Below, piece after piece: positions 46,535-64,000 of a stretch of 64,000 bases of DNA. Source of the stretch: Thermobifida alba. GTDB taxonomy: Bacteria > Actinomycetota > Actinomycetes > Streptosporangiales > Streptosporangiaceae. Position 1 is the first letter of the stretch, and every line of letters starts with the position of its first letter. Below the pieces are notes generated by a model that saw only the letters and a list, made by a program, of their open reading frames with translations, ran no database searches and was not told the origin of the DNA. Where the stretch lies: the NCBI RefSeq assembly GCF_023208015.1, contig NZ_CP051627.1, forward strand, positions 3,888,422-3,952,421, read 5' to 3'. A program made the translations under genes and the position numbers.

Positions 46535-46789
46535 GGTGCGACTACTCCCAACGCGACTTGGAGAAGAGACGGGTGTGGCTCATGAGCCTACGACTCTCCC
46601 ATGCCCCGTGGGACGCCATCCACAGGTGCGGAACGCGACGGACACGGCTTTTCCCCAGGACGCCGTCCACCGGGGCCCGTGGTGCCGGAACGTCCGACCC
46701 TGCGGCCGGAACCGGCAGAACCCCAACAAACCACCGGGGATTCTGCGAATCTGGTACGCGTCCACCCCACCACCCCCGGAAGGATGCCG

Positions 46790-47578: not shown

Positions 47579-47590
47579 CCGCGGGGCGGA

Positions 47591-49681
47591 CTACTTGGTG
47601 TGGTCGATCTCCTCGATGAGGTGGCCGCCCAGTTCGCTCTCGATGAGCAGGGAACCGGTGAAGGCGCTCTCGTCCAGGTCGTTCTCCGCCGCGTCCTCGG
47701 GGGCGAGCGAGGAATCGCCGGCCGGTCCGGAGTCGGCCGCCTCGGCCGGTCCCGGCTGGGGCCGGGGGGCCGGCTCGGGAGGCGCGGGCGGCTCCGGGGC
47801 GGGCTGGACGCCCGCCGGTTCGGGGCGGGAGAAGGCCACCGGGACGTCGTCCCACCCGGTCTCCGCCGCCCCCCGGGACGCGGATCCCGGCGAGGGCGCG
47901 GAAGGCGGCGCTGGAGGGGCGTCCCGGTCCGGCTGGGGTGCGGGCGGTGCGGCGGGTTCCCGGACCGGCTGCGGCGGACGGGGCGCGGCGGCCTGCGGGG
48001 CGCGCGGCGCCGCACTGCCCGGGTTCCCCGTGGACGCCTCCACGGAGACCTCCAGACCGCACACCCGCTGCACCGCCTCGGCGATGTCCCGGGCCCGCCC
48101 GCCCGTGACGAAGCTGCGCATCAGGCCGTCGGTCTCGAAGAAGAGGGTGAGGGTGCGCCCGTTCAGCACGGTGGTGCGCACCCCGTCGCGGACGATGGCG
48201 TGCGCGGCCCGCTTCCGGTTGCTCGCCAGGTATTCCAGGATGTGCGGCCACCGGTCGTCGAACGACCCGCCCCCGGCCGGGACCTGGGGACGCTGCTGCG
48301 CGGCGGGCGCGGGCGTGCCCGGCTGTGCGGGGGAGCCCCAGTCGTCGGCCGGGGCCGGACGCGGCTGGGGCCGGGACGGGGCCGCGGGCGGCTGCTGCGG
48401 CCGTGCCTCGGGCGGCGGCGCGACCGGACGGTCCGGTGCGGCCGGGGCGGGCGGCGGGGCCGCGGACGGCGCGCCTCCCGCCGGGGCGGGCGCGACCGCA
48501 GCGGCCGCGGGGGCCGCCGCGGCACCGCCGCGCTCCAAGCGCTCCAGCCGGGCCGCCAGCGCCAGTTCGTCACCGGGGTCGACGGCGGGCAGCAGGATGC
48601 GCGAGCACATCAGTTCCAGCAGCAGCCGGGGCGCGGTGGTGCCGCGCATCTCGGTCAGCCCCTTGTTGAGGATCTCGGCGGCGCGGGTCAGCTGTGCCGC
48701 ACCGAGCCGGCCCGCCTGCTCGCGCATCTGCTCCACCGCGTCGGGCGGCACGTTGATCAGACCCTTGTCCAACGCGTCGGGCACCGCGTTGAGCACCACC
48801 AGGTCGCGGACGCGCTCCAACAGGTCGGCGGCGAACCGGCGGGGGTCGTGGCCGCCCTCGACCACCCGGTCGATCAGGCCGAACACGGCGGCCCCGTCGC
48901 GCGCGCCGAGCGCGTCGACCATCTCCCCGAGGAGGCTGGAGTCGGTGTAGCCGAGCAGCTGCACCGCGCCCTCGCGGGTGATGCCGCGCTCGTCGGAGCC
49001 CGCGAGCAGCTGGTCGAGGATGGACAGCGAGTCACGCGCGGAGCCGCCGCCGGCGCGCACCACCAGCGGCAGCGCCGCCGGGTCGTAGGGCACGCCCTCC
49101 TCGGTGAGGATCTCCTCCATGAGTTCGCGCAGCGTGCTCGGCGGGATCAGCCGGAACGGGTAGTGGTGGGTGCGCGACCGGATCGTGCCGATGACCTTCT
49201 CGGGCTCGGTCGTGGCGAAGACGAACTTCAGGTGCGGCGGCGGCTCCTCGACGAGTTTCAGCAGCGCGTTGAAACCCTCGCGGGTCACCATGTGCGCCTC
49301 GTCGATGATGTAGACCTTGTACCGCGAGTTCACCGGCGCGAAGAACGCGCGTTCTCGCAGGTCACGCGCGTCGTCGACACCACCGTGGGAGGCGGCGTCG
49401 ATCTCGATGACGTCGATGCTGCCGCCGCCGTCGGGGGCCAGCGCCACGCACGACTCGCACTCCCCGCACGGGTCGGGGGTGGGGCCCTGCACGCAGTTGA
49501 GCGAGCGGGCCAGGATGCGCGCGCTGGACGTCTTGCCGCAGCCGCGCGGACCGCTGAACAGGTAGGCGTGGTTGACCCGCCCGTTGCGCAGCGCCTGGCG
49601 CAGCGGCTCGGTGACGTGTTCCTGGCCGCGCACCTCGGCGAAGGTCGCGGGACGGTACTTGCGGTACAGGGCGATGCTCAC
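47591..49681 (-). CDS. dnaX: DNA polymerase III tau/gamma subunit
   Basis: Clamp-loader ATPase, 696 residues. AAA+ domain: SIALYRKYRPATFAEVRGQE, Walker A LFSGPRGCGKTSSAR, a zinc site with C-x8-CGECESC, Walker B VYIIDEAHMVT, and sensor 1 FVFATTEPEKV. From about 380 the protein is Pro/Ala-rich, ending in an acidic tail, the tau-type extension that binds DnaE and DnaB. GTG at 49681 fits the family; longer frames do not. No obvious slippery heptamer was seen for a gamma form. The SRP RNA gene lies 130 bases upstream. Confidence 0.95.
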   Translation of the reverse strand: MSIALYRKYRPATFAEVRGQEHVTEPLRQALRNGRVNHAYLFSGPRGCGKTSSARILARSLNCVQGPTPDPCGECESCVALAPDGGGSIDVIEIDAASHGGVDDARDLRERAFFAPVNSRYKVYIIDEAHMVTREGFNALLKLVEEPPPHLKFVFATTEPEKVIGTIRSRTHHYPFRLIPPSTLRELMEEILTEEGVPYDPAALPLVVRAGGGSARDSLSILDQLLAGSDERGITREGAVQLLGYTDSSLLGEMVDALGARDGAAVFGLIDRVVEGGHDPRRFAADLLERVRDLVVLNAVPDALDKGLINVPPDAVEQMREQAGRLGAAQLTRAAEILNKGLTEMRGTTAPRLLLELMCSRILLPAVDPGDELALAARLERLERGGAAAAPAAAAVAPAPAGGAPSAAPPPAPAAPDRPVAPPPEARPQQPPAAPSRPQPRPAPADDWGSPAQPGTPAPAAQQRPQVPAGGGSFDDRWPHILEYLASNRKRAAHAIVRDGVRTTVLNGRTLTLFFETDGLMRSFVTGGRARDIAEAVQRVCGLEVSVEASTGNPGSAAPRAPQAAAPRPPQPVREPAAPPAPQPDRDAPPAPPSAPSPGSASRGAAETGWDDVPVAFSRPEPAGVQPAPEPPAPPEPAPRPQPGPAEAADSGPAGDSSLAPEDAAENDLDESAFTGSLLIESELGGHLIEEIDHTK

Positions 49682-49814
49682 GGCGCGCTCACTGCTCCCT
49701 CCGCGGACCGGCGCTGTGGGGTCACAGGCTCCTCGGTGGCGTCCACGCCATCCATTCAACCCCGTTCCGATGACAGTCAGGGGCTGCTCCGCGCGATCGG
49801 CGGCCCCAAACGCG

Positions 49815-49909
49815 AAAGGACCCCCCGCGCACCCGCCAGAGCCTACTTATCCTTGCTGCCTTCCGGCCCTGGGGAGGTTCGTAGGATGACGCCGCACGAG
49901 GGGTCTGTC
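49815..49909 (-). ncRNA. ffs: Signal recognition particle RNA (4.5S, small bacterial type)
   Basis: The minus strand contains the conserved SRP loop: CAGGGCCGGAAGGCAGCAAG at 49854-49873, with GGCAGC and AAGGAT as the tetraloop and asymmetric loop parts. The outer stem is formed by GGACAGACCCC at the 5' end and GGGGGGTCC at the 3' end (49818-49826). The ends are accurate to a few bases. TATAGA about 10 bases upstream may be its -10 box. An ffs gene before dnaX is the usual actinobacterial order. Confidence 0.93.
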
Positions 49910-50034
49910 CGAGAGTCTATAGGCCCCCGACGGGTTTCGCGAACCCGGACGTTCCGCAGCTCGGACCGGTACTTCCCCGGCCGGGACGGGGAACCGGTTC
50001 GGAGCACTGTCCGATTCCATGTAGAGTGTTCTGC

Positions 50035-50119
50035 GGAGGATTCGCCTAGTGGCCTAGGGCGCACGCTTGGAAAGCGTGTTGGGGGCAACCCCTCAAGGGT
50101 TCGAATCCCTTATCCTCCG
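50035..50119 (+). tRNA. tRNA-Ser (anticodon GGA)
   Basis: Acceptor stem GGAGGAT (50035-50041) with ATCCTCC (50112-50118), discriminator G, no encoded CCA. Anticodon loop TTGGAAA between CACGC and GCGTG gives anticodon GGA. Long variable arm TTGGGGGCAACCCCT. It marks the left edge of the accessory region. Confidence 0.96.
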
Positions 50120-50139
50120 CACCGCCTGACCAGGCAGCA

Positions 50140-50174
50140 CGAGGCCCCGGAGCGCCCAGCGCCCCGGGGCCTCG
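50140..50174 (+). terminator. Terminator after tRNA-Ser(GGA)
   Basis: Eleven-base stem CGAGGCCCCGG / CCGGGGCCTCG with a 13-base loop, starting 20 bases after the tRNA. Confidence 0.85.
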
Positions 50175-50184
50175 TCGTGCTTCC

Positions 50185-50511
50185 GTCTCAGTTTCAGCAT
50201 GCGGACGGCGAAACCCAAGCCAAACGCTCGCCGATCGGGAGTTCGTGTGTGCCGAGTGCGGATTACAGCTCGACCGTGATCTCAACGCGGCACGCAACAT
50301 CGCTGCCCATGCGGAAATTGTGCCGCCTGGCACGGGCGCCCCTGGTAGAGGGGAGCCCTTAAACGCCCGTGGAGACCGTGTCAGTCCTGTCCTCCTCAAG
50401 GGAGAGCGGGCAACAGTCATCGAAGCGGGAAGACGCTGGCCTCTGCGGGCCAGCGCCACCTCGGCGGAGCAATCCGCCGACGTCCCTCTCGCGCGTATCT
50501 CAAAACGGTAA
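50185..50511 (+). pseudogene. TnpB (IS605/IS607-type OrfB) C-terminal remnant
   Basis: The frame reads SVSACGRRNPSQTLADREFV then CAECGLQLDRDLNAARNIAA, the C-terminal zinc-ribbon and final RuvC motif of TnpB (normally C-S-A-C-G ... C-x-x-C-G ... DRDxNAAxNI). The first zinc Cys is replaced by Ser/Val, and the whole N-terminal part is missing; the remnant starts right after the tRNA terminator. The tail after NIAA (LNARGDRVSP) is also typical. No TnpA or intact ends are seen. It abuts the CRISPR leader. Confidence 0.8.
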
Positions 50512-50540
50512 AGCTTCTGCTTAGATGCAGGTCAGTAACT
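50486..50540 (+). promoter_or_regulatory. Probable CRISPR leader end
   Basis: The 55 bases before the first repeat are AT-richer than the flanks (CTCAAAACGGTAAAGCTTCT, then GCTTAGATG) and lie on the 5' side expected for a repeat that starts GTGC and ends GACCG. The leader may extend into the TnpB remnant. Assignment of the leader side is inferred. Confidence 0.5.
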
Positions 50541-51177
50541 GTGCGGGCCTTACGCGCGCGGGACGACCGTACACCGCGACCCGGCGCGGGTCCGTGGCCC
50601 GCGTGCGGGCCTTACGCGCGCGGGACGACCGGTCTTGGCGGACGCGCTGCGGGCCGGGGTCGTGTGCGGGCCTTACGCGCGCGGGACGACCGCCGCCAGG
50701 ACAGCCCCCACGCCCCGCCACCCCGTGCGGGCCTTACGCGCGCGGGACGACCGGAGGCCCCTCATGACCAGTCCGTTCTGGCTGAGTGCGGGCCTTACGC
50801 GCGCGGGACGACCGCACCCCGCCCCGTGGGGGGGTGCGCATCAGTGCGGGCCTTACGCGCGCGGGACGACCGTCCCGGGGGCTCATCGCGCCCGAGGAGG
50901 CAGCGTGCGGGCCTTACGCGCGCGGGACGACCGGCTGAGGCCGACCGCGCCACCCGGCAGGCGGAGTGCGGGCCTTACGCGCGCGGGACGACCGCCGTGT
51001 GGCCAGGGGGCGCCGCCTGCGGTGGCGTGCGGGCCTTACGCGCGCGGGACGACCGCCCACGACGAGGAAGAGGTGTACGCCTGATGGGTGCGGGCCTTAC
51101 GCGCGCGGGACGACCGACGGTGACCATGTAGCGGACCGGCCGCCCGTCGTGCGGGCCTTACGCGCGCGGGACGACCG
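50541..51177 (+). CRISPR. CRISPR array, 11 identical 29-base repeats, 10 spacers
   Basis: Repeats begin at 50541, 50603, 50664, 50725, 50786, 50844, 50905, 50966, 51027, 51088 and 51149. Each is 29 bases, starting GTGCGGGCC and ending GCGGGACGACCG, identical in all copies as far as I can read. Spacers are 32 bases except the first (33) and the fifth (29). The 29/32 geometry and the GTG...GACCG ends fit type I-E, but the centre (TTACGCGCG) lacks the usual CCCC/GGGG stem. No cas gene lies in the window, so the array is an orphan or depends on distant cas genes. Confidence 0.97.
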
Positions 51178-51412
51178 GGGCGAGTTCCAGGGTCCACGGT
51201 GCTGCGGTGGTCTCGACACGGGTGGCGGCAGCGTAGCCCTGCCGGGCGTGGTCCAACAACCGTTCGGCGATTCGCGGCCCCAGCACCACACCGGAGTCGA
51301 AACTGTACACAAAGGTGAGTGACGGTAACGGGACAACGGCGGCCTTCTCTGAGGTGATGAAGAACCGTTCGAAAAGATCGGCGTCGATGAGGCCGATGTG
51401 CAGCGTCTGCAT
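51158..51412 (-). pseudogene. Gene fragment ending inside the last CRISPR repeat
   Basis: A minus-strand frame from ATG 51412 gives 84 residues with coding character (MQTLHIGLIDADLFERFFIT, SLTFVYSFDSGVVLGPRIAE, RLLDHARQGYAAATRVETTA). The same frame stays open about 35 codons upstream (RTTLPPALADHLHRLLELRD) without a start. Its C-terminus (PVVPRA then stop) is encoded by the last CRISPR repeat, so the array has replaced the true 3' end. Family not recognised. Confidence 0.5.
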
Positions 51413-51522
51413 GCCCAGCGACCGGTTGTGGGGATCTCGCAGCTCCAGCAGCCGGTGTAGGTGGTCGGCCAGGGCCGGGGGCAGAGTGGTCCGCTGATGG
51501 GTGAGACGCCGGTCTCGGGAAG

Positions 51523-51554
51523 GCCCTCAGGGGGCTGTCACGCCCCCTGAGGGC
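51523..51554 (-). terminator. Terminator of the XRE / 125-residue gene unit
   Basis: Perfect 13-base stem GCCCTCAGGGGGC / GCCCCCTGAGGGC with a 6-base loop, 11 bases beyond the stop at 51565. Confidence 0.85.
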
Positions 51555-51564
51555 TTCGCACCCG

Positions 51565-51942
51565 TCACACGGCCTTGTCGGCCCTGACGTGTATTTCGAT
51601 CTGTTCGAAGATGTCGGCGTCGGTTTCCTGCTGCCAGGCCGGCAGGTCGTCCCAGTCGGCGACATAGGAGGGCTTGGGGTCGGGAAAGTGCTTGTAGATC
51701 TGGCCGATCCAGCACAGGGCGACGAACCGGCCCTTCTGGGATCGGGTGAGTTTGGCGGTGGCGCCGTTGGTCGTCTCGACGAAGGCGGCGACCTGGTCGT
51801 AGACGGCGGCCGCGGCGGCCCGTTCCCAGTCGGGAGTGTCTTCCCAGGGAGCGATGTAACCCGGTTTGGGGTCGCCGGGATAGTGGTTCTTTACCCCGGC
51901 GATCCACGCGTCGCGAAACAGCCGGCCTCGCTCGTCGTGCAC
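51565..51942 (-). CDS. Hypothetical protein with internal duplication
   Basis: 125 residues made of two similar halves: WIAGVKNHYPGDPKPGYIAP-W-EDTPDWE...VYDQVAAFV and WIGQIYKHFPDPKPSYVADW-DDLPAWQ...IFEQIEIHV. Each half has an aromatic HYP/HFP-DPKP motif and a helical end. GTG start at 51942 with GAGGAG 6 bases upstream. It follows the XRE regulator by 17 bases and shares its transcript. Proteins of this type occur beside XRE regulators in other actinobacteria (from memory), function unknown. Confidence 0.7.
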   Translation of the reverse strand: MHDERGRLFRDAWIAGVKNHYPGDPKPGYIAPWEDTPDWERAAAAAVYDQVAAFVETTNGATAKLTRSQKGRFVALCWIGQIYKHFPDPKPSYVADWDDLPAWQQETDADIFEQIEIHVRADKAV

Positions 51943-51959
51943 TTCAACTCCTCTGTCGA

Positions 51960-53519
51960 TTATCCGGAAACTGCAGGTCTGGTGAGGGCGGTGATGTCGT
52001 CGTTGAGCCGACGGATGCGTCTGTCGCGGAGCAGCGGTAGCAGATACTGCTGGAGCCCTCGCAGTTTGCGGTTGATCACACCCGATCCGGTCTGGCGAGC
52101 CGCCTCCACCGCCTCGGCGGTGAAGGCCACCACCTGCTCTGGGTCTCGACGCTGGACGCCGAGAAGCGCGAGGTCGGTGAGCACGCCTGCACGGCGTCGC
52201 ACAGTAAGGGGTCCGGTCAGGGCCTTGGTGAGCGCTGTCTCGGCGAGGTCGGACCGTCCCAGTGCGACATAGCAGGTGCCGCGCTCCTCAGCCAGGCGCG
52301 AGCCGTCGAAGCGCAGCCAGCCACCGTTGTGGACCTGGCCGGGCAGGTCCAGGACCTGCTCTGCGGTGTCCAAAGCCCGCTGGCAGGCGTCTTGGTCTCC
52401 GAGACCGGCGAAGGTCTCAGCCTGCACGGCAGCGACCCAGTATCGGGTGGACAGTGTCGAGTCCCCGCGGTGTGCAAGGGCCGTGGCGAGTTCCAGCAAA
52501 GGGACCGCTTGGGGGAACTGCCGTTCATAGACCGCAACGAACGCGTGCCGCGTCAGTGCGCACGCCCAGAGGTCGAACGCTCCGGCCTCCTTGGCCGCAG
52601 AAGCGGAGAGGGAGTAGCAGTGGGCGGCGTCGGTGTAGTGGTTGCCGTCGAAGAAGATCTCTCCAGCCAACTGGAACAGGTCCGCGGTCAGAAGACAGAG
52701 CCGCTGGCGGGCGGCCTCGCCGTGGGGCTGTTTGAGCTTGTCGGTCAGCACGTCGAGTTGGGTGCGCACCAGGGGCAGCACCTGGCTTTTGGACGGGGTC
52801 AACCCGAAGACGCGCCATAGGTTGCTGTTCAACTGCGTGTACTCGTCCAGCGCGGTGGCATCCAGGTGCCCCGACCGTCCTGGAATAGAACTGATCGCTT
52901 GGTCGATGCCCGGTACGAACCCGGCAGATGGCAGGGCCAGCAGTGTGCCAGTGACACTGAACAGGCGCAGCAGTTCACGGCGGTTCATGTCGTCATTCTC
53001 CGGAGCACCCGTCTGGCCGGGCCACACCGGGAGCAGACTGCGGTCGTTTTGCGGATCCGGGCTGGCCTTCCTGGAGAGAGGGCGCTGGGGGAGTGGTTGT
53101 CCCACGGGACCGTTCGAGTGAAACCCCTCGACGGCGGGAGTGGTACAGGTTCTCGCTGAGATGTCCTCAGTATCCGACGTGTCGAGCGGTGCGCCTGCAC
53201 CCGATGGTCCCGCCCTCATAGTGGAAGCTGGAGGGAGGATACCGAGGCCTTCCAGAGCCCTGCGCTTCTTGGCCGCATCGCGCAGGGAGCGCTTCCCCGA
53301 TTCCATCTGCGAGACCATGCCCTGGGACAGGCCGGTCATGTTTCCGATGGCCTCTTGCGTCAACTCCGTATGGGTGCGCAGCAGCCGCACGATCCGCGTC
53401 ACATCCGAGCGCGCCACCGCCTCGCGGACGTCAGCGCGCTGCCAGAAAGCGACGGGAATGCACTCGCATCTCCCCTCGGCACGGTCGTGCCCGCAGTGGC
53501 CGCAGATCACGGAGGCCAT
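51960..53519 (-). CDS. XRE-type regulator with C-terminal TPR-like region (copy 1)
   Basis: 519 residues. A Cys-rich start (CGHCGHDRAEGRCEC) precedes the helix-turn-helix (TRIVRLLRTHTELTQEAIGN, MTGLSQGMVSQMESGKRSL). A linker with MNRRELLRLFSVTGTLLALP follows, then helical repeats (from about 220) of the kind in actinobacterial signalling regulators (GEAARQRLCLLTADLFQLAG, WACALTRHAFVAVYERQFPQ). ATG at 53519 has AGGAG upstream. Its N-terminal DNA is nearly identical to that of the copy at the right edge. Divergent from the lanthipeptide precursor, so it is the likely cluster regulator. Confidence 0.88.
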   Translation of the reverse strand: MASVICGHCGHDRAEGRCECIPVAFWQRADVREAVARSDVTRIVRLLRTHTELTQEAIGNMTGLSQGMVSQMESGKRSLRDAAKKRRALEGLGILPPASTMRAGPSGAGAPLDTSDTEDISARTCTTPAVEGFHSNGPVGQPLPQRPLSRKASPDPQNDRSLLPVWPGQTGAPENDDMNRRELLRLFSVTGTLLALPSAGFVPGIDQAISSIPGRSGHLDATALDEYTQLNSNLWRVFGLTPSKSQVLPLVRTQLDVLTDKLKQPHGEAARQRLCLLTADLFQLAGEIFFDGNHYTDAAHCYSLSASAAKEAGAFDLWACALTRHAFVAVYERQFPQAVPLLELATALAHRGDSTLSTRYWVAAVQAETFAGLGDQDACQRALDTAEQVLDLPGQVHNGGWLRFDGSRLAEERGTCYVALGRSDLAETALTKALTGPLTVRRRAGVLTDLALLGVQRRDPEQVVAFTAEAVEAARQTGSGVINRKLRGLQQYLLPLLRDRRIRRLNDDITALTRPAVSG

Positions 53520-53914
53520 GATCTCCTACAGGATCCGGGGAGTCCATAACAGATTATTACGGCCTGCAGCCTGGCCTGGAGTCTCCCAGCCCCGCAGACC
53601 AGCGCAGCCAGACTGTGCGAGCACACAACAGGTTCTGCTTCAGTAGGCGGGGACCGAGACGGGGTTCACATGTCCGTTGAGTGTGGCCTGGCTGGCGTAA
53701 AAGCTGGAGAAGCTCTCTAGGTCGACAAGGGGATCTACTAGGGGGTTTCTTTCGAAGATCGAGGCGATAGGAATATTGCAATTTATTGCATTTATTGCTG
53801 GAGTTGTATTTGTCTAATGCGGTGCCCGGGGGGACAGTGTAGAGCGCTGGCGGGATGCTCGCTCGACTCAGAAGCAAGTGTCTTCAACAAACTGGTCAGA
53901 ATAAGGAGAACGAA
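53520..53914. promoter_or_regulatory. Divergent control region, XRE regulator / lanthipeptide cluster
   Basis: 395 bases without a supported gene, AT-rich from 53740 to 53825, which contrasts with the surroundings. It holds phased TATTGC repeats (listed separately) and the AAGGAG ribosome site of the precursor. The long untranslated stretch suits a strongly regulated promoter. Confidence 0.5.
53774..53798. repeat. Three phased TATTGC repeats
   Basis: TATTGC occurs at 53774, 53784 and 53793, spaced 10 and 9 bases, one helical turn apart, 115-140 bases before the precursor start. Candidate binding site for the divergent XRE regulator or part of the promoter. Confidence 0.5.
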
Positions 53915-54085
53915 ATGAGTAATACGGTTGCTGCTGAACCGTCTGTCTCCGAAGACCCCTTCGCGCTCGATGTGCAGATTGTCACCGACATTCCCCCGGG
54001 AGATCCCCTGTTCGCCTGCGGGGAAGGAACCAACGACGGCTGCCAACCGACCTGCGCCTCGGCTTGCGTCACCGGTGGAGTCTGA
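53915..54085 (+). CDS. FxLD family lanthipeptide precursor
   Basis: 56 residues. The leader has FALDVQIV at 16-23, the FxLD motif that names this family of class I lanthipeptide precursors (TIGR04363-type, by memory). The C-terminal core region runs from about residue 35: CGEGTNDGCQPTCASACVTG, with Cys at 35, 43, 47 and 51 and Thr/Ser at 39, 46, 49 and 53 for dehydration and ring closure. Asp41 lies in N-D-G, the best context for methylation-driven aspartimide formation by the linked methyltransferases. AAGGAG 7 bases before ATG. First gene of the cluster. Confidence 0.88.
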   Translation: MSNTVAAEPSVSEDPFALDVQIVTDIPPGDPLFACGEGTNDGCQPTCASACVTGGV

Positions 54086-54166
54086 TGCCTGCTGATCTGG
54101 GTGCTGCCCGGGGCGAGGGGGCCGAGCTCCAGGCAGCCTCTTCCTCTCATTGCTTGGAGAGACGAA

Positions 54167-57100
54167 ATGGGTGCCACCACCAAGTTGGCAAGGCTGTACC
54201 GACACACCGGTGCGGCGCTGTTGCGGGCCGCCGCCGTCCCCTTGTCCACCTCTTCCCTCAGTTGGCCGGATCTCACCGACCCCACAGCAAGCCGAGCTTG
54301 GCTGGCACGGGTGTGGGATGATCCGCGTCTCGCGGAAGCCGTGGGACAAGCCAGCCCTTCACTGGAAAAGACTGTTGCAGTCCTTCGAACTGGGAACCCC
54401 GTTCGAGACAAGCAGGTCCGTAGCGCCTCCCTGTCCACCGTCCGCTACTTACTTCGTAGCATCGGTCGTCCGACACCCTTTGGACTGTTCGCAGGAGTTG
54501 CTCCAGTCAAACTGGGCCCAACCGCAAAGGTGGCCTGGGGGCACAACCACCGGGCCGCTGCTCGTGTCAACACCGAATGGCTGATCGACATCATCGAACA
54601 GGCCGAAAGCTGCCCCGAATTACTGGACCGACTCTTCGTTGTGCTCTCAGACCTCGCTCACCGCCGTGGCCGGCGACTCGAAGTGCCGCGAGGACCGAAC
54701 CGGGTGACCTTGAACTACACCCGTGTCGTTGCCGTACTCTGCGACAGAGCCACCACCCCGATCCGTTTCGCTGCTCTCGTCGACATGCTTGCCGAAGAAT
54801 TCGCCGTTGATCGGGACAGAGTTCGAAGCACGCTCACAGAACTGGTAAAAAACGGCTGCTTGATCACCAACTTGCGCGCCCCGTTTACAGTTACCGACCC
54901 GCTAGCCCACGTTGTGGACCAACTCCGCGAGGCTGGCGCCGACACCGTGGCACACACAGCCCCCTTACTCCGCGCCCTTGAGGAAATCCAAAACGAACTG
55001 CAACACCACAATCATCCAGCCACCACCCCGCAAGATCAGAAACACTCCCGAGCACTGGTCACCAGCGCGATGAGAGAACTGTCCCGGGCTGGACGCATGC
55101 CGCTGGCACTGGACCTGCTGCTGGATTGCCAGGTCCGACTTCCCCGTCAAGTAGCGCATGAGATGGAGCGAGCAGCAAGCGCACTGCTGCGGCTGACCCG
55201 TCAACCCACCGGAGAAAAGCCTGGCACGACTACCATGCGGCGTTCGTCGAGCGCTACGGCACAGGAACCCTCGTACCACTCACCGATGTCCTCAACCCCG
55301 ACTCCGGACTCGGCTACCCGGCTGGATACCGCGGCAGCGTGTTCCCCCTACCAGGAGACGGATCCACGACACGAGATGAACGACTGCTGTCCATGGCTTG
55401 GCAGGCTGTGGCTACAGACAGCCGTGAGATCGTCCTTACCGACGCAGACATTGACGCTTTGAGCAACGGAGACTGCGACCCCCACCGCATTCCTCCACAT
55501 GTCGAACTCTCCGCACGCATCCACGCAGCCGACACCGAAGCACTGAACCGCGGCGATTTCCTCATCACCGTGGCCCCCGCTCGGTCTGCGGGCACACTGA
55601 CCTCTCGCTTCACCCCCATCGCCACCGGCAGCGGCCTGGCCGAGGTTTACCGGGCCCTGCCCTGCTCGATCAGGGGAGCACTCCGCGTCCAGATGAGCTT
55701 CGGGCCGCTGTACGCACACGCCGAAAACGTCTGCCGCGTCCCCGCCTACCTGGACCACTTGCTTCCGCTCGGACAGTATCCATCTTCCAGTGCCGAACAG
55801 ACACTGATCACCGTGGACGACCTGGCGATCACCGCTACCAGTGACCGCCTGTACCTGGTCAGCCTTACCCACCGCAGGGTTGTGGAACCCCAGGTGTTCC
55901 ACGCTCTCGCCTTGGACAAACAAGCCCCGTTGCTCGCCCGGTTTCTCGCCCACCTACCCCGCGCAGGTCTGGCCTCCTGGTATCAGTTCGACTGGGGACC
56001 GCACGCCACACTGCCGTTTCTGCCTCAGGTCCGCTACCGGCGCACCATACTGTCCCCGGCCCAGTGGCGCCTGACCAAAGCCGACCTGCCACCACGAGGA
56101 GGTGACTGGGAGACAGCACTCGATCAGTGGCGGCAACGCTGGAACTGCCCGAACGTGGTGGAGTTGCGTGAAGCCGACCGCACACTGCGCCTCACGCTCC
56201 AAGAGCCTGCCCACGTGGCTTTGCTGCATGCCCATCTCAGCCGACACGGCCAAGCCATCCTCTACCAGGCCACCCCCCTCAAGGAATACGGATGGATCAA
56301 TGGCCACGCTCACGAAATCGCACTGCCGTTGGCCGCCGTATCTCCGGAGGCCCCCAACCCGCTGTGCGGCCCTCTGCCGACGGTGACCAACACGCATGGG
56401 CAACTTTCGGGGGCTGCGGAAGCCATTTGGCTGTCCACGAAGCTCTTCACCCATCCCGAGAGAATGACTGAGATCGTCACCGAGCAACTCCCCGCTCTCC
56501 TGGCCGAGCTCAACTCCCCCCCATGCTGGTGGCTGCGCTACCGAAGTTCGCGAGAAACCGACCACCTGCGCATTCGCATCCGCACCTCCCCGGACCGCTA
56601 CGGCCGACAGGTGCGGAAAGTCGCCGAGTGGGCTCAACAGTTGCGGCGGACAGGAGTGGCCGGTGCCCTGTCCTTTGACACCTACTCTCCGGAGATCGGA
56701 CGTTACGGGGCAGGCCCAGCGTTGAACGCGGCAGAAGAGGTCTTCGTCGCCGACGCCGAACTCGTGGCAGCCCTGCTGCGCCAGCAGGCCACAAGCCCTG
56801 TGGATCCCACCGCGTCAGTGGTGGCAAACATGGTGGCCATCGTCACCGGCTTCTACGGTGATCCCACAGCAGCGATGAACTGGTTGGCGCAACGCCCAAC
56901 TCCTACCGCTCCTGCAATCGACCGCAGAGTGGCCGACGAGGCCATCCGAATCAGCACCGAGACCAGCGCCCGGTCTCTATGGGGTCGAAGCCACGAACTC
57001 GATGCGCTGTGGCAGAGACGCGCCGACGCTTTGAAGGCCTATCGCATGGCATTGCCAGCGGACGCGAATATCAACATCGTGGTGGAGTCGCTGCTGCACA

Positions 57101-57213
57101 TGCACCACAACCGTGCCGTAGGCATTGGCCCGGAGCACGAGCGCACCTGCCGTCGCCTGGCACGACAGGCCTCCCTCTCCTGGCTGGCCAGGAAAGGAAA
57201 CGGTGTCCGGTGA
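54167..57213 (+). pseudogene. lanB: Lantibiotic dehydratase LanB, frameshifted
   Basis: tRNA-Glu-dependent dehydratase that makes Dha/Dhb from Ser/Thr of the precursor. First frame 54167-55218: SIGRPTPFGLFAGVAPVKLG and other Lant_dehydr_N motifs. Second frame, from 55216 to 57213: AWHDYHAAFVERYGTGTLVP, NPDSGLGYPAGY, then the elimination (SpaB_C) domain with CWWLRYRSSRETDHLRIRIR and YSPEIGRYGAGPALNAAEEV. The WHDYH segment precedes any start codon in its frame, so this is not a natural split LanB. Adding one A to the AAAA run at 55215-55218 restores about 1015 residues, normal for LanB. Start at ATG 54167 after GGAGAG. Confidence 0.85.
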
Positions 57214-58438
57214 CCAACGTCCTTCGGCACGTTCCCCAAAGCGGACTCGCCCCCGCTCAACGACAGTCCCTGGCTTTCGGTGCTCTTGGCACAGCCCTCC
57301 TCCACATCGTTCGTGCCTGCACCGGTGCAGAGGAGTGGGATACTGCCCATCAGTGGGTGACCACTGTGACTCGCGGCCCGGTAGCCGCCCATACCGAAGC
57401 CAATTTGTTCTACGGGGCGCCCGCAGTCGCGTTCGTGCTGCGTATCGCTGCCAAGCGCAGCCACACGACTGTCTTGGCTGCACTCGATGACCACATCACT
57501 GCGCTCACCCGGGCCCGACTGGACCAGGCCTACGCTCGGATCAGCCGCGGAGAACTTCCCCGTCTGGGGGAATACGACTTGATCAGCGGTTTGACCGGGA
57601 TCGGTGTATACCTGTTTCAGGCCCAGAATGCCGATCTACTGCGGGAAGTATTGGCCTACCTGGTCCGACTGACCGCAACGGTCACCATCGGAGACCGTCG
57701 CCTTCCCGGCTGGTGGACACTTCATGGCCCTTCCGACCGCCCGGATCCCCGATGGCCCGGCGGTCACGCCAACCTGGGCTTGGCTCACGGCATCAGCGGT
57801 CCGCTGGCACTGCTGGCCCAGACGATGCTCCACGGCATCACCGTGCCAGCCAGGCAGAAGCCATCGCTGACATCAACAGGGTATTGGATCGTTGGCTTCG
57901 TGACTTTCCCCATCGCCCCTGGTGGCCAGGGGCCGTCTCCGCTCGGGAATGGGAAAGCGAAACCCTTCACCAAACCGGCCCGCAACGACCGTCCTGGTGC
58001 TACGGAACTCCTGGTCTGGCCCGCGCTCGGCAGCTCGCTGCTCTCGCCCTGAACACCCCGGAACGGCAGCACACCGCTGAGACCGTTCTGGCTTCCTGCA
58101 TCACCGATGAAGCCCAACTCGACCAGCTCCGCGACGACTCGCTGTGCCACGGCTGGGCCGGACTCGTCCACACCAGCCGACGTGCCGCGGAGGACTCCCT
58201 TCGCGGAAGTGTGCTCACCCTGGCGTTCTCCCGCCTTCACGAGCTCTGGAGCCGACGCTGGCCATACCTGCCAGACACGCCCGACCACAAAGGTCTGCTG
58301 GAAGGCACAGTGGGGGCCATGCTGGTCCACCACGGTGGTGAGCATCCTGTCTCCCCCTCCTCGCCCGCCTCCTGGTGGGACGCCTGCCTGTTGACCACCG
58401 CACCTGTCACGACCACGGACCCGGAAGGACCACGATGA
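57210..58438 (+). pseudogene. lanC: Lanthionine cyclase LanC, frameshifted
   Basis: Zinc cyclase adding Cys thiols to Dha/Dhb. First frame from GTG 57210 (overlapping the lanB stop): GALGTALLHIVRACTG, GEYDLISGLTGIGVYLFQAQ, NLGLAHGISGPLALLAQ. Second frame, from about 57848: AEAIADINRVLDRWLRDFPH, then the zinc ligands in SWCYGTPGLARARQLAAL and DSLCHGWAGLVHTSRRAAED. The frames join if CC at 57847-57848 is CCC, giving about 409 residues, normal for LanC. As written, the first frame ends at 58052 without any zinc ligand, so it would be inactive. Its stop overlaps the ATG of the first methyltransferase. Confidence 0.85.
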
Positions 58439-59646
58439 CCAACGCAGCCGGTACACGTCCCGAACAGCTGCGCGACCGTATGGTCGACCGCATCAGGACC
58501 GCAGGCCACCTCCGCTCTCCACGAGTCGAGCACGCCCTGCGAACCGTTCCCCGGCATCGGTTCGTCCCCGAAGCCTCCACAGAGGACGCCTACGCCGACA
58601 AGGCCATTACCATCAAACCCGGCACCGACCGGCCGGCCAGCTGTATCTCCGTGCCCACCGTCGTGGCCATGATGCTCGACCAACTCGACCCGCAGCCCGG
58701 CGAACGGATCCTGGAGATCGGCGCCGGCACCGGGTACAACGCCGCTCTGCTGGCCGAACTGGTCGGGCCGGAAGGCCGGGTCACCACTGTCGACATCCAC
58801 TCTGACGTCGTCGACCACGCGCGGCGCACCCTGGCCGAGACCGGCTACTCCCGGGTCCGGGTGGTCAACGCGGACGGCGTGCTCGGCTACCCGCAGGACG
58901 CCCCCTACGACAGGATCATCGTCACGGTCGGACCGTGGGACCTGCCCCGGGCCTGGTTCGACCAACTCCGCGACGGCGGGCGCCTTGTGGTGCCGCTGCA
59001 CTGGCGGGGCCAGTCCCGCAGTATCGCCTTCACCCGCTACGCCGACAAGCTGCGTGCCACCGACAGTCGGCTCTGCGGATTCATCCCCATGGTCGGGAAC
59101 AGCGACGGTGAACGCACCGCAGAGATCACTGACCATGTGGCCCTGTACTGGGACGCGGGCCAGGACATCAGCCCGACCGCCCTGCACAGCGTGTTCACCC
59201 GCTCGGAGAGCACCGTGTGGTCCGGTGTCACCGTGGCCGCCAATGAGCCCTTCGACCATGTCTGGTTGTGGCTGAGCGCCACCGAGCCAGGTACCTGCCG
59301 TCTCGCCGCAGAGCCCGCCGCCATCGACGCCGGCGTCTGCCACGCCGTGTTCCCCTACCGCACTCCCGCGATCGTGGAAGGCGACTCCCTGGCCTACCTG
59401 ACCAGGCCCCGTCCCGTCGACCAGGACGACGAGCCCCGCTTCGAGCTGGGGGCCACTGGACACGGTCCCGCAGGAACCGACCTCGCCGAACGCCTCTGCG
59501 CGAGCATCCGCCTGTGGGACCGCGATCGCGACGCCCAGCCCGTCATCACCGTCTGGCCGACTGCTGTTGGGCACGCGGACCCGCAGCACCACGAAGGGGT
59601 GGTCATTGACAAGGAACACGTCCGACTGGTGCTCACACACCGCTAG
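58435..59646 (+). CDS. FxLD-system O-methyltransferase 1 (PIMT-like)
   Basis: 403 residues. Protein-L-isoaspartate O-methyltransferase-like N-terminal domain: VEHALRTVPRHRFVPEASTE, SCISVPTVVAMMLDQLDPQP, SAM motif I ILEIGAGTGYNAALLAELVG, and APYDRIIVTVGPWDLPRAWF. A C-terminal domain of about 190 residues (VALYWDAGQDISPTALHSVF, FELGATGHGPAGTDLAERLC) matches the methyltransferase, FxLD system (TIGR04364-type, by memory). Such enzymes methylate an Asp of the lanthipeptide, which then cyclises to aspartimide and can open to isoAsp. ATG overlaps the lanC stop (ATGA). Confidence 0.9.
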   Translation: MTNAAGTRPEQLRDRMVDRIRTAGHLRSPRVEHALRTVPRHRFVPEASTEDAYADKAITIKPGTDRPASCISVPTVVAMMLDQLDPQPGERILEIGAGTGYNAALLAELVGPEGRVTTVDIHSDVVDHARRTLAETGYSRVRVVNADGVLGYPQDAPYDRIIVTVGPWDLPRAWFDQLRDGGRLVVPLHWRGQSRSIAFTRYADKLRATDSRLCGFIPMVGNSDGERTAEITDHVALYWDAGQDISPTALHSVFTRSESTVWSGVTVAANEPFDHVWLWLSATEPGTCRLAAEPAAIDAGVCHAVFPYRTPAIVEGDSLAYLTRPRPVDQDDEPRFELGATGHGPAGTDLAERLCASIRLWDRDRDAQPVITVWPTAVGHADPQHHEGVVIDKEHVRLVLTHR

Positions 59647-59765
59647 CGCTAGCCGTCTTCACCGCTTATTGCAAGGGCTGGGAGTCGTCAGGACAGCGGA
59701 ACCGGGTACTGCCGGTTCGTTGCTCTGGCGTAGTGGTCCTGGGCCACTCCGACCACGAGGTTTCT

Positions 59766-61022
59766 GTGACAAGCACTGTTGTGAACCGCGGCTCCGCCGA
59801 GGCCGCCCGCGCCGAGGAGCTGCGCTCCGTCCTGGTCGACCGTTTGTGCGGGGACGGCGTGGTCCGCAGCGCTGCGGTGGAGGCGGCCCTGCGCCGGGTG
59901 CCCCGGCATCTGTTCGTGCCGGGGACGTCTCTGGAGGAGGCCTATGCCGATGAGGCCGTCTACACCAAGCGCGACCCTGACACGGGGGCTTCCATCAGTG
60001 CCGCTTCCCAGCTGAGGATCGTGGCGATGATGCTGGAGCAGCTCCAGGCCGCGCCGGGCATGCGCGTGCTGGAGTTGGGCGCGGGCACCGGCTACAACGC
60101 GGCCCTGCTCGCCGCCCTCGTCGGGCCGGAGGGCCGCGTCACCACGGTGGACGTGGACGACGACCTTGTCGCGGGGGCCCGGGACCACCTGGCCGCCGCG
60201 GGCGCGCCCAACGTCGAAGCGGTCCTCGGCGACGGCGCCCTCGGCCACCCCGACAGCGCCCCCTACGACCGGATCATCGCCACCGTCGGCGCCTACGAGG
60301 TGCCCACGGCCTGGCTGGAACAACTGGCTCCCGGCGGGCGCCTGGTGGTGCCGCTGCGTCTGAGTGGCGCCGTCTCCCGCAGTATCGTCTTCGAGCGCGC
60401 CGAGCGTGGCTGGACCAGCCGCGGCAGCGAACTGGCGGTGTTCATGCCGCTGCGCGGGATCGGTGACGACGCGCGCCGCGTCATCGACCTCACCGGGGAC
60501 GGGCAGGTGACCCTGCAGACCCACGGGGACAACACCGACGCCGATGCCGATGGGCTGGCCGGTGTGCTGGGCGCCGGCCGCTGCGAGGCGTGGAGTGGGG
60601 TGTGCTTCGTGCCGCGGGAGTCGTTCGAGTGGCTGTACCTGTGGCTGTCCTGCCGCCTGGCCAACCCGCTGATGCGGATGAACGTCGAACCCGCCGCCCG
60701 GGACAGCGGACTGGTCGCGCCGATGTTTCCCACCACGGCCATGGCCACCACCCGCGGCGGCGACCTCGCCTACCTCACCATCCGAGCAGCCGAGCCCGGT
60801 CCCGACAGTGCCAGACGGTACGAGGTCGGCGTCATCGGCCACGGTCCCGGCGCCGAGGAACTGGCGTACCAAGTGGTCGAGGAGGTGCGGGTCTGGGACC
60901 GCGACCACCGCAACCACCAGGCGCGCTTCGAACTCCCCGACACTGCGGTGGTCTCCGATCCGGAGGCGGGCCGCTACGTCCTGGACCGCCCCCGCCACCC
61001 CGTCACCGTCATCTGGGAATGA
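59766..61022 (+). CDS. FxLD-system O-methyltransferase 2 (PIMT-like)
   Basis: 418 residues, paralogous to the preceding gene and of the same architecture: VEAALRRVPRHLFVPGTSLE, RVLELGAGTGYNAALLAALV, APYDRIIATVGAYEVPTAWL, and FELPD-type C-terminus with YEVGVIGHGPGAEELAYQVV. It has a longer C-terminal domain and higher GC than its neighbour, so it may not be a recent duplicate. GTG at 59766 with GAGG upstream; an earlier GTG at 59733 is possible. The 119-base gap before it may hold a promoter. Two such methyltransferases for a single precursor are unusual. Confidence 0.88.
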   Translation: MTSTVVNRGSAEAARAEELRSVLVDRLCGDGVVRSAAVEAALRRVPRHLFVPGTSLEEAYADEAVYTKRDPDTGASISAASQLRIVAMMLEQLQAAPGMRVLELGAGTGYNAALLAALVGPEGRVTTVDVDDDLVAGARDHLAAAGAPNVEAVLGDGALGHPDSAPYDRIIATVGAYEVPTAWLEQLAPGGRLVVPLRLSGAVSRSIVFERAERGWTSRGSELAVFMPLRGIGDDARRVIDLTGDGQVTLQTHGDNTDADADGLAGVLGAGRCEAWSGVCFVPRESFEWLYLWLSCRLANPLMRMNVEPAARDSGLVAPMFPTTAMATTRGGDLAYLTIRAAEPGPDSARRYEVGVIGHGPGAEELAYQVVEEVRVWDRDHRNHQARFELPDTAVVSDPEAGRYVLDRPRHPVTVIWE

Positions 61023-61678
61023 TCACAGACACCGTTGCCCTGGCACGGCGCTTTCCCTTGGTCGCGCGGTCGCGTCCACCGTGTGCCCCGCTCGACGCCC
61101 GAGTCGGCGAGCTGTGCAGGCTCGCCGACTCGGCGGCACGCAGCACCGACCCGACAGCCGCCTCAGCCGTGTACAACCAGGCCGCCCTCCTGGCCTCGGA
61201 CGCAGGACTGCTGGAGCTGGCGCGCACCTGGTGTCACCGGCATGCGATCCTTCTGTTCTGCGGGAAGCGGGTGGCGGACCGGGACGTCCACACCATGCTC
61301 GGCCTCTACCAGGCGCTTGAGTGCCCAGGCCGTACGGCGGTGTTTCACACACGACTGGGACTGACCGTGGTCGATGCTCTCGGAGGTACCGACCACCCCC
61401 GAGGGGGCCGCATCGCCACCGACCTCATCCGCCGCGCGATCGAGGAACGTGACGGCTACCGCGCCAGGGAGATCCTGACGCACCCGAGCGGGGCCGCCCA
61501 ACCGGTGAGGGACGAACTCGCCGAAGTGACAGCCTCCTGTGGATTGGGAACCGGACGACTACCCGAGGCTCTGCACGCCCTTCTGACCGAGGCGGTGGCG
61601 ACAAGCGAGGCCACGCTCACACGCACACTCCGCATGGGGATCGGGCAGGCCCGCGGCGGGCCCCGTAGCCGGAGGTGA
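61019..61678 (+). CDS. Accessory protein, internally shortened
   Basis: 219 residues starting at an ATGA overlap with methyltransferase 2. The N-terminal part (ALARRFPLVARSRPPCAPLD, AASAVYNQAALLASDAGLLE, LARTWCHRHAILLF) and C-terminal part (GRTAVFHTRLGLTVVDALGG, RIATDLIRRAIEERDGYRAR) match the two ends of a longer (about 370-400 residue) helical-repeat protein common beside XRE regulators and RiPP loci in Streptomyces, as I remember it. About 150 residues of the middle would be missing after HRHAILLFCGKR. The frame is intact, so it may be translated, but function is doubtful. Confidence 0.6.
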   Translation: MITDTVALARRFPLVARSRPPCAPLDARVGELCRLADSAARSTDPTAASAVYNQAALLASDAGLLELARTWCHRHAILLFCGKRVADRDVHTMLGLYQALECPGRTAVFHTRLGLTVVDALGGTDHPRGGRIATDLIRRAIEERDGYRAREILTHPSGAAQPVRDELAEVTASCGLGTGRLPEALHALLTEAVATSEATLTRTLRMGIGQARGGPRSRR

Positions 61679-61766
61679 ACGATCATGTCGGCATGGCCGA
61701 CGCGGGACAGTCCCGGGCTTGTGGGGGCCAAGCTGTCCAAGGGGTGTTGAGCCTGTTGGAGTCCTG

Positions 61767-62687
61767 TCAGTGGTAGGTGTCCCACCGGGTGCGGGTGTCG
61801 CCTGCGCGGAAGCTCGCGTAGCGGGGCTCCCACTGGGCGCGGATGCCGGGGTTGCCGGCCAGTTGTGGAAGCACGCTGGTGACCAGGACGAGTTCACGTA
61901 GACGGCGGAAGACCGGGAAGCCGACCCAGGCGGTGACGTCGTAGCCGTAGGCGTCGGCCAGCGGGGTGTGGTGGTCCTCGGGATAGTTCATGCGCAGCCG
62001 TCCCACCGCGACAGGGGTGAGGTCCCATTCCCGCGGCCCCCAAGAGACGCCGTCGAAATCGCACAGCACGGGACCGTCAGGACCAGGGATCAGGTTGCCC
62101 AGGAACGGGTCGCCGTGGATCAGACCCGCTTCCAGCACGTAGTCCAACGACCGGACCTCGGCTTCCACTGCGGCGCACTGTTCCAGCAGCCATTCCTGGT
62201 CGCGGGCACTGATGCCTTGGGCGTCGGCGATGCGTGCGCGGATACGGGGAAATGGAGCCCAGTCGGGTAGTGCGAAGTCGGGTTCGGGCAGGGCGTGGAA
62301 CCGGCGGAGAATGCGTCCCAGGTCGGCCCCTGTGGGCGCGGGACCGGTGACGGGTACTTCCTCCCAGAACGTTGCCACGTGGCCTGCGGCCTCGACGGGT
62401 TGGTCGATGCCGGACAGCAGGCGCACAGCGGGCATGTCTTGGCCGGTCAGCCAGCGGGCCACCTGCACGACCGTGGTGATGCTGGCCCTAGCGGCGCGGG
62501 AACCGGCGATGCGCACCACCACCGGAGCCGTGGCCAGCCGCAGTGCGGCGTTGTTGGTGAACTTGATCAACTGGGCGCCGGTCGGATCGAGGCCGACACG
62601 GTCGCACAGGGCTGCCACGACCGTGGGGAGCTCGGCCAGCGTGAGACCGCCTGCGGAAGCCGTTGGTGCAGAAGGTGGTGTGCTCAT
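61767..62687 (-). CDS. Aminoglycoside phosphotransferase (APH) family protein
   Basis: 306 residues with the APH/choline kinase fold: APVVVRIAGSRAARASI (ATP-binding side), VATFWEEVPVTGPAPTGADL, LGRILRRFHALPEPDFALPD, and the catalytic AGLIHGDPFLGNLI followed by VLCDFDGVSWGPREWDLTPV (metal-binding D). The substrate is unknown; in such loci these genes more often act in small-molecule phosphorylation than in drug resistance. ATG overlaps the stop of the second XRE gene (62684-62687), so the two form an operon. Confidence 0.85.
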   Translation of the reverse strand: MSTPPSAPTASAGGLTLAELPTVVAALCDRVGLDPTGAQLIKFTNNAALRLATAPVVVRIAGSRAARASITTVVQVARWLTGQDMPAVRLLSGIDQPVEAAGHVATFWEEVPVTGPAPTGADLGRILRRFHALPEPDFALPDWAPFPRIRARIADAQGISARDQEWLLEQCAAVEAEVRSLDYVLEAGLIHGDPFLGNLIPGPDGPVLCDFDGVSWGPREWDLTPVAVGRLRMNYPEDHHTPLADAYGYDVTAWVGFPVFRRLRELVLVTSVLPQLAGNPGIRAQWEPRYASFRAGDTRTRWDTYH

Positions 62688-64000
62688 CGTGTCCGCAGCG
62701 TAGCAATCCGTTCCACCAGGTCGGCGGCATCGATGGTGTGTACTGCCTGTGCTGCAGCAGCCAAAGGGGCAAGCCGGTCGATGACCCGGGCAGAGCACAG
62801 ACGCTCAGCCAAGTCGACAGCGGCATAACCGGCCTCCACGCCTTCCGCGGTATCTCCGCCTGTGATGTGGGCAGTAGCCAAAGCCGCTAGTTCAAACGCG
62901 CGACTCCGACTCATTTCCGGTCCTCGTTGGGAGAGGCTACGGGTGAGACTCGTGGTCGCCTGGTTGTAGGCGCGGGGAACGAGCTCCACTAGAGAGGCGT
63001 TGACCACGCCGGTCATGGCGTCCAGGTCGGCAGTGCCGAAGAAACGGGCCCAGGACGGGACACGGGTGTGGTCGGTACGGGTGAATTCGTCCTGGGAACG
63101 TCCCAGCGCTTGGAGCGCGCGGCTTGGGTCTCCTGTCAGGGCATAGGCCCAGGCCTCGTTGGCGTGCAGGATCGCCACGGTTACCCCGCAACCGGAGTTC
63201 TGTCCGGCGATCTGTCCTAACTGGAAGAAGCGCAGGGCGTCGCTGATCAGTCCACGGTGGAGGTGGAGGCGTCCCATGCGGTAGAGGACGTTGGCGGAGA
63301 GAGAAGGCTCCTGGGCATGGTGAGCGTGTTCCAGGGCACGGGCGAAGTGCCACCGTGCGGTGGAGTGGCCGCCGATGTCGAACTCTGTCCATCCCGCCAG
63401 GTTGTGGAGATCGGCCAGAGCGAGGTGCAGTCGAGCTTTGACCCTATCGTTCTCCGAGGCCGCGGTAAGGAAACGGCGGGCGTGGGCGGTGTGAGCGTTG
63501 ATCGCGTCGCGGCATGCTCCACCGCCGTACCGGTAGTCTGCGGCCCTCAAGGAGTGGGTCACTGCTTCGAGGTGTTCCACGTTGGCCATGGTGACTCGCT
63601 GTGGAACCTGAGCCGCTTCTATGGTGAACGGTGAAGTCCACCGGTCTGGTGTCTGGGGAACCACTCCCATGGTGACCTGGGCTGCATAGGCGATCAGGTC
63701 ATGCACTTCCGTGGTTTCGCTGCATACCTCTGGTCCAGAGAAGTGGGTGACATATTCGAGGACTGGCTGAGGCGTCCCCAGTCCTTCCAAGGCTCGGCGT
63801 TTCTTGATGGGGGATCGCAGGGAGCGCTTGCCGGATTCCATCTGCGAGACCATGCCTTGGGACAGGCCGGTCATGTTCGCGATCGCCTCTTGGGTGAGGT
63901 CGGTGCGGGCGCGCAGCAGTCGCACGATCCGCGTCACATCCGAGCGCGCCACCGCCTCGCGGACGTCAGCGCGCTGCCAGAAAGCGACGGGAATGCACTC
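62684..64000 (-). CDS. XRE-type regulator (copy 2), N-terminus beyond window
   Basis: At least 438 residues; the frame is open to the window edge, where it reads ECIPVAFWQRADVREAVARS, the same as copy 1. Helix-turn-helix: TRIVRLLRARTDLTQEAIAN, MTGLSQGMVSQMESGKRSL. The C-terminal helical-repeat region (HLALADLHNLAGWTEFDIGG, ALEHAHHAQEPSLSANVLYR) is only distantly like copy 1. A GTG at 63952 is an internal codon, not the start. Operon with the phosphotransferase gene. Confidence 0.88.
   Translation of the reverse strand, partial: ECIPVAFWQRADVREAVARSDVTRIVRLLRARTDLTQEAIANMTGLSQGMVSQMESGKRSLRSPIKKRRALEGLGTPQPVLEYVTHFSGPEVCSETTEVHDLIAYAAQVTMGVVPQTPDRWTSPFTIEAAQVPQRVTMANVEHLEAVTHSLRAADYRYGGGACRDAINAHTAHARRFLTAASENDRVKARLHLALADLHNLAGWTEFDIGGHSTARWHFARALEHAHHAQEPSLSANVLYRMGRLHLHRGLISDALRFFQLGQIAGQNSGCGVTVAILHANEAWAYALTGDPSRALQALGRSQDEFTRTDHTRVPSWARFFGTADLDAMTGVVNASLVELVPRAYNQATTSLTRSLSQRGPEMSRSRAFELAALATAHITGGDTAEGVEAGYAAVDLAERLCSARVIDRLAPLAAAAQAVHTIDAADLVERIATLRTR

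Follow-up and report, generated by a model that had tools for sequence, protein, structure and literature searches.

Why would a lanthipeptide cluster with a single visible precursor carry two PIMT-like methyltransferases? The question is raised by positions 53915-61678 of a 64,000-nucleotide stretch of the Thermobifida alba chromosome (the window; the genome, G000 in our comparisons, is a single contig of 4.90 Mb with a 100% complete rating). The original prediction had read here an FxLD class I lanthipeptide locus in which a precursor with a FALD leader, LanB, LanC and two FxLD methyltransferases (hereafter MT1 and MT2) lie in one direction, and this holds: the locus is a genuine FxLD class I lanthipeptide cluster, its precursor scoring 33.6 bits against TIGR04363 (cut-off 30) and MT1 and MT2 scoring 432.4 and 460.2 bits against TIGR04364 (cut-off 320), with profile matches for all parts on the forward strand. 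We consider it likely that the cluster as a whole is chimeric, an A-B-C-MT cluster (LanA-LanB-LanC-methyltransferase) to which MT2 and its partner gene have been added from a differently organised FxLD cluster, and it is apparently disabled in G000. Its parts, all on the + strand, are as follows.

53915-54085, +: precursor (LanA), 56 residues, FALD leader motif, core region ...ACGEGTNDGCQPTCASACVTGGV (TIGR04363)
54167-57213, +: LanB, whole span, in two frames
54167-55216, +: LanB 5' piece, Lant_dehydr_N positions 2-304; frame open until the stop at 55460-55462
55225-57213, +: LanB 3' piece in another frame, Lant_dehydr_N 355-649 and the elimination domain (Lant_dehydr_C); overlaps the LanC start
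57210-58438, +: LanC, whole span, in two frames
57210-57842, +: LanC 5' piece, GTG start, LANC_like positions 3-182; frame open until the stop at 58050-58052
57863-58438, +: LanC 3' piece in another frame, LANC_like 196-333, WCYG and CHG stretches kept; overlaps the MT1 start
58435-59646, +: MT1, FxLD methyltransferase (LanSA) of the A-B-C-MT lineage (TIGR04364 and tree)
59647-59765, +: MT1-MT2 spacer, 119 nt, GC-rich stem predicted (from coordinates)
59766-61022, +: MT2, FxLD methyltransferase of the A-B-C-gene-MT-accessory lineage (TIGR04364 and tree)
61019-61678, +: accessory gene remnant, 219 residues, two aligned blocks to a 390-residue homologue

The stop/start overlaps that had been described at each later step are present at three junctions (LanB-LanC, LanC-MT1 and MT2-last gene); MT1 and MT2, however, lie 119 nt apart. 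Two features had been overlooked: LanB and LanC, taken as single genes, are each split across two frames, and the last gene, at 61019-61678, is an internally deleted copy of an accessory gene.

Ancestry of the two methyltransferases

Neither enzyme belongs with ordinary protein repair. The checks proposed with the original prediction place both far above the TIGR04364 cut-off and neither at a repair cut-off: against TIGR00080 (cut-off 159.05) MT1 reaches 157.6, narrowly below, and MT2 126.4, and against PRK00312 (cut-off 188) they reach 178.7 and 153.3. Parts of PMC10787088 describe an extension of more than 100 residues C-terminal to the PIMT domain as a feature of LanSA/PAMT enzymes, and this architecture is present in both, the PCMT match ending at residue 222 of 403 in MT1 and at residue 224 of 429, as scanned, in MT2.

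The two proteins share 45% identity. We compared them within a set of 40 FxLD family stretches and at least 80 named loci, a partial sample, from which a maximum likelihood methyltransferase tree of 76 rows was built. MT1 falls within the clade of A-B-C-MT clusters (support 98/92 and 99/95), its nearest relatives outside the genus, among the loci listed, being Frankia L146 and L147; MT2 falls within the clade of clusters in which LanC is followed by a further gene, the methyltransferase and an accessory gene (A-B-C-gene-MT-accessory; 99/95 and 100/100). In the LanC tree, the window LanC piece and the LanC of the congener G003 join Frankia L146 (99/97), and the best LanB matches among the loci listed likewise belong to the A-B-C-MT layout. 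By these sequence comparisons MT1 and MT2 are of different lineages and not tandem copies, and the methyltransferase and LanC trees indicate that MT2 and the accessory remnant derive from a cluster of the A-B-C-gene-MT-accessory kind. Thus, of the claim of paralogous methyltransferases for one precursor, the two FxLD enzymes stand, whilst 45% identity and separate lineages describe a different relationship. Neighbouring position, a shared family and that same 45% identity might suggest that one methyltransferase gene was duplicated in tandem; yet the two nest in separate, well-supported clades, and MT2 carries its clade's partner gene along. The tree rules out a recent tandem duplication, and an origin by tandem duplication of any age strikes us as extremely improbable.

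The partner gene is itself informative. The 219-residue last gene can be aligned with the two ends of a 390-residue accessory protein from another FxLD cluster of G000, with about 160 middle residues missing, and matches the accessory profile at positions 19-103 and 266-387; by alignment it is an internally deleted copy of the roughly 390-residue accessory gene that follows MT2-type methyltransferases. Of the usual neighbours of an MT2-type enzyme, the following one is shortened and the preceding one is untraced in the spacer. The G003 stretch, in which DNA collinearity ends at 61043, gave no accessory gene match. Accessory proteins of up to 390 residues are frequent in FxLD clusters (L025 4453-5622 and homologues, alignment A2); four full-length members reach no Pfam or NCBIfam model at cut-off, and the protein shows at most weak TPR matches and weak matches to solved structures (best E 0.011).

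Comparison with known clusters brings out the two halves. The window precursor, LanB, LanC and MT1 are closest to the A-B-C-MT clusters (L146 of Frankia californiensis, L127, L128 and L147), and the precursor shares its ...CASACVTGG end with L146 and L147; these four clusters differ in having one methyltransferase and no accessory gene. L147 gave no LanC match, and the LanB of L146 itself lies in several frames. MT2 and the accessory remnant are instead closest to the A-B-C-gene-MT-accessory clusters (L107, L108, L111 and L175), from which the window cluster differs in lacking the gene that precedes the methyltransferase and in having a precursor, LanB and LanC of the A-B-C-MT type. Precursors of the two layouts resemble FALDVQIV...ACTTNDGCxPSCASSC and FDLD...TDDGC, respectively. 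In one case (L115) the preceding gene encodes a LanB elimination domain on its own (TIGR03891, 164 bits), a companion already known from the consulted portion of PMC7268733.

A single LanB-LanC pair accompanied by two full-length FxLD methyltransferases is also found in L116, L132, L137, L138, L140 and L187, with other gene orders and lineage pairings; in all six the tree places the two enzymes apart, not as sisters. The arrangement thus recurs in other genera, each observed case combining separate lineages. Among the named loci listed, one of 24 clusters has two full-length methyltransferases, 18 have one and five have none; in the family sample the figure is 5 of 29, biased upward as some stretches were picked for two hits, and within the genus it is two of six, both being the window cluster (G000 and G003). 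Two-methyltransferase clusters are not mentioned in the portions consulted of PMC13001092, PMC10787088 and PMC7268733, nor in the titles and abstract openings of related literature. Separate methyltransferase lineages within clusters fit the apparent lack of co-evolution between LanSA-type methyltransferases and LanC reported in part of PMC13001092. MT2-type methyltransferases also occur without any LanB or LanC match within about 9 kb (L106 9034-10260 and L125 8640-9863), in genomes where no FxLD precursor match was found at E 0.01.

The whole cluster in G003 and the role of MT2

A search of four genomes of the genus, G000 included, gave FxLD methyltransferases in three, and G003 has the same cluster. 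There LanB and LanC are uninterrupted (1015 and 409 codons), MT1 is open for 402 codons and MT2 for 418 from the aligned start (ATG one codon on), and the spacer is again 119 nt. Identity to the G003 proteins is 87% for MT1, 90% for MT2 and 79% for the precursor. The DNA is collinear over 53897-61043 at 89%, and the sequence on either side also aligns (51466-53656 at 90.5%, 65019-68447 at 94%), so the cluster occupies the same chromosomal site in both species. The addition of MT2 and its usual partner behind the last gene of the LanA-LanB-LanC-MT cluster would thus predate the split of these two species.

Both methyltransferases have been under similar purifying constraint since then, the ratio of nonsynonymous to synonymous change (dN/dS) between G000 and G003 being 0.229 for MT1 and 0.242 for MT2; it is 0.326 for another FxLD methyltransferase common to the two genomes, and 0.373 for the precursor, over 56 codons. 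Class-invariant residues, defined from 14 reference rows for the MT1 class and 20 for the MT2 class, are kept at 67 of 69 (MT1) and 118 of 120 (MT2) positions in G000, and at 68 of 69 and 117 of 120 in the G003 copies, within the leave-one-out range of the classes. The suggestion that one methyltransferase might be a non-functional copy finds no support in these figures, though a Pro-to-Leu change and a nominal rate excess in MT2, taken up below, should be noted.

What might the two enzymes do? Parts of PMC13001092 and PMC10787088 describe OlvA/OlvSA clusters (LanSA, lanthimiditides), which the window cluster resembles in its LanB, LanC, PIMT-like methyltransferase and Asp-Gly in a TxDGC motif, and from which it differs in having two methyltransferases of separate lineages and, in G000, interrupted LanB and LanC. 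According to part of PMC13001092, OlvSA methylates an Asp of the cyclised peptide, and the ester passes through an aspartimide mostly to isoaspartate. By analogy, in the whole form held by G003, LanB and LanC would install thioether rings, and the Asp-Gly of TNDGC is the probable target of MT1, which would methylate Asp41 inside a predicted Thr39-Cys43 ring to give an aspartimide and then mostly isoaspartate. MT2 would most likely act on the same cyclised peptide, either at a second site or by re-methylating isoaspartate. Neither G000 (four above-cut-off FxLD precursors) nor G003 (two) has a precursor of the MT2-type layout among these, and the second G003 precursor (L037) lies in a cluster with a LanB fragment and no LanC found in the stretch examined; the window-type peptide may therefore be the likeliest lanthipeptide substrate of MT2 in G003. 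The idea of a second substrate loses ground with the missing MT2-type-layout precursor, and keeps some in that other FxLD precursors, with methyltransferases of their own, could be served in trans.

Could MT2 instead be a mere passenger, the 3' remnant of a neighbouring and otherwise lost FxLD cluster, with no role here? Its partner gene is shortened in G000 and gone in G003, FxLD clusters do adjoin each other elsewhere in G000 (methyltransferases at 3535190 and 3540507), and orphans such as those of L106 and L125 exist. Nevertheless, MT2 is intact in both species, with a dN/dS near that of MT1 and nearly all of its class-invariant residues retained, and has kept its place 119 nt behind MT1; we regard the passenger explanation as a minority possibility, if a sizeable one. 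A rather slimmer chance is that MT1 and MT2 act on two different Asp of one core. The G003 core has two Asp-Gly pairs (ACGDGTNDGC, at Asp37 and Asp41), as against ACTTNDGC or CKGNTDDGC, with neither position-37 variant, in the nearest single-methyltransferase relatives. In G000, however, Asp41 of TNDGC is the only Asp-Gly and position 37 is Glu, which goes against the earlier suggestion of different Asp targets for this species. The additional Asp common to both cores precedes Pro (GDP), and an Asp before Pro is unable to cyclise to aspartimide. Nor are Asp counts a guide: by eye, single-methyltransferase clusters have one to three core-region Asp and the two-methyltransferase cluster L187 has one, and a rule of more Asp with two methyltransferases did not emerge clearly (L116 and L124 gave no precursor). 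More speculative again, and in our judgement improbable, is the broader notion that in G003 MT1 and MT2 convert Asp41 and Asp37 to give two aspartimide/isoaspartate positions, the Glu of G000 having arisen amid decay, and that, more generally, FxLD clusters take up methyltransferases from other lineages and so broaden their range of products.

Several points weigh against a chimeric cluster with a working second enzyme, favoured as it is here. The spacer holds no match above shuffled scores to the gene that precedes MT2-type enzymes, and so the joining event itself is not visible. At one of the 53 columns conserved across both classes, G000 MT2 carries Leu in place of a Pro common to 12 of 12 relatives, and it has accumulated 22 derived changes to the 9 of G003 (p 0.02, uncorrected); relative to MT1's ratio the excess is not significant (p 0.14), and the solved PIMT 2yxe has Ile at the aligned position. 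We read these figures as a hint that MT2, kept since the species split, may recently have weakened in G000. The broken LanB and LanC show no visible relaxation of constraint, and assembly errors are possible. The role of MT2 on this peptide is putative, and other FxLD precursors of G000 could be its substrates in trans, for instance that of L025 (FDLD...TDDGC), which has its own methyltransferase alongside.

The locus is a natural and testable case in which one cluster holds a pair of LanSA enzymes with different origins and a sister species supplies an intact version. Should MT2 act on the same peptide, the contribution of an additional PIMT-like enzyme would come to light; should it not, the locus would warn that methyltransferase counts in mined clusters can include the leftovers of neighbours.

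The predicted spacer hairpin was considered as a signal and rejected, its z-scores against shuffles (-0.6 in G000, -1.7 in G003) not being significant; relatives have various stems downstream of their methyltransferase.

Interruption in G000 and absence in G001

The G000 LanB retains both its glutamylation and its elimination domain, across two frames, and the break falls inside Lant_dehydr_N and not between domains; LanC is split between LANC_like positions 182 and 196. With both genes interrupted and a shortened accessory gene, the G000 locus as read should make no finished lanthipeptide. The LanB pieces are 89% (5') and 88% (3') identical to G003 and both LanC pieces 85%, with dN/dS of 0.195 and 0.249 for LanB and 0.194 and 0.246 for LanC. 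Since constraint is not visibly relaxed, the breaks are either recent or sequencing errors. An apparent acceleration in the LanC 3' piece, 13 changes to 0 with pooled outgroups, shrinks to 1-6 against 0-3 with single outgroups and is not claimed.

Whether the breaks are real is a fair question, as sequencing or assembly errors would leave the cluster functional in G000. Besides the unrelaxed constraint, both are single-base net differences, a common type of assembly error, and a third such difference lies in another G000 LanB (L027, near 11320). On the other hand, the genome is a single contig rated complete, a further gene of the operon, the accessory one, carries independent damage, and in the flanking sequence aligned to G001 (about 10.9 kb) the uncompensated differences of one base fall outside called genes (by a crude gene caller), those within genes relative to G003 falling in LanB and LanC. 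Errors thus seem to us the less probable account, though one to be taken seriously. Programmed frameshifting, or deliberately split proteins, would fit the sequence conservation of both halves of LanB and LanC; with each a single frame in G003, and with LanB broken within Lant_dehydr_N and not at a domain boundary, we give this very little credence.

In G001, the closest congener, the cluster is absent from the site, although the flanks are 97.6 and 98.9% identical to G000; this genome has two FxLD methyltransferases in total, both from other clusters. In G000 the cluster is flanked by direct repeats of about 415 bp, 89% identical to each other, and the relevant features are these.

53242-53656, strand not assigned: left direct repeat, made up of the 5' end of the NsdA-family gene on the left plus upstream sequence (alignment, 89% to the right copy)
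63777-64192, strand not assigned: right direct repeat, the 5' end of the right NsdA-family gene (alignment; the window edge is at 64000)
L234 about 3258-3634, reverse: empty site in G001, a left/right recombinant of the G000 flanking repeats

A 143-bp tract (53386-53528) is identical in the left repeat, the right repeat and G001, and the G001 site runs from left repeat sequence through this common tract into right repeat sequence, the order expected as the product of recombination between the repeats, which explains the empty site. Most simply, then, G001 would have lost the cluster segment by such recombination; as G003 shares the site and G001 is the closer relative, one loss is simpler than two gains. 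One chromosomal site would thus show a gradation of loss, with a whole cluster in G003, an interrupted one in G000 and none in G001, where the repeats explain the absence.

Genomic surroundings

The repeats belong to two NsdA-family regulator genes, at window 51960-53519 (left) and 62684-64000 (right; profile scans; see also L235 and L236), whose similar 5' ends act as direct repeats and whose remainders diverge. Related copies of this 5' end occur at six further places in G003, and kinase-like (APH family) genes lie near such copies in the G003 region.

In the whole-genome profile search, G000 yielded five methyltransferases and four precursors of FxLD type that pass the cut-offs. L025 is a complete FxLD cluster with the order MT-A-B-C-accessory; a fourth cluster has a LanB fragment only (L025 at about 18 kb, to which L026 adds nothing). 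The LanB of a further cluster, in L027, departs from its G001 counterpart by a net one base towards the 5' end, at about 11320, and its profile match begins at position 70 and not 11.

As originally stated, no transporter was found: a crude motif scan gave no ABC-type ATPase frame in window 46000-64000, and the look beyond the right edge that had been advised gave the same result over a further 18.6 kb. As 20 comparison stretches are likewise without such a frame, a transporter-free neighbourhood looks normal for the FxLD type, and we rejected the missing transporter as a peculiarity of this locus.

Elsewhere in the window, a CRISPR-like array occupies 50541-51178; its 29-nt repeat (GTGCGGGCCTTACGCGCGCGGGACGACCG) occurs 11 times, at intervals of about 61 nt. 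Four tandem paralogous open reading frames of 75-76 residues, about 530 bp apart and with near-identical starts (MKLAAVGAMTAGLVGAGAS), lie on the - strand at 34590-36429.

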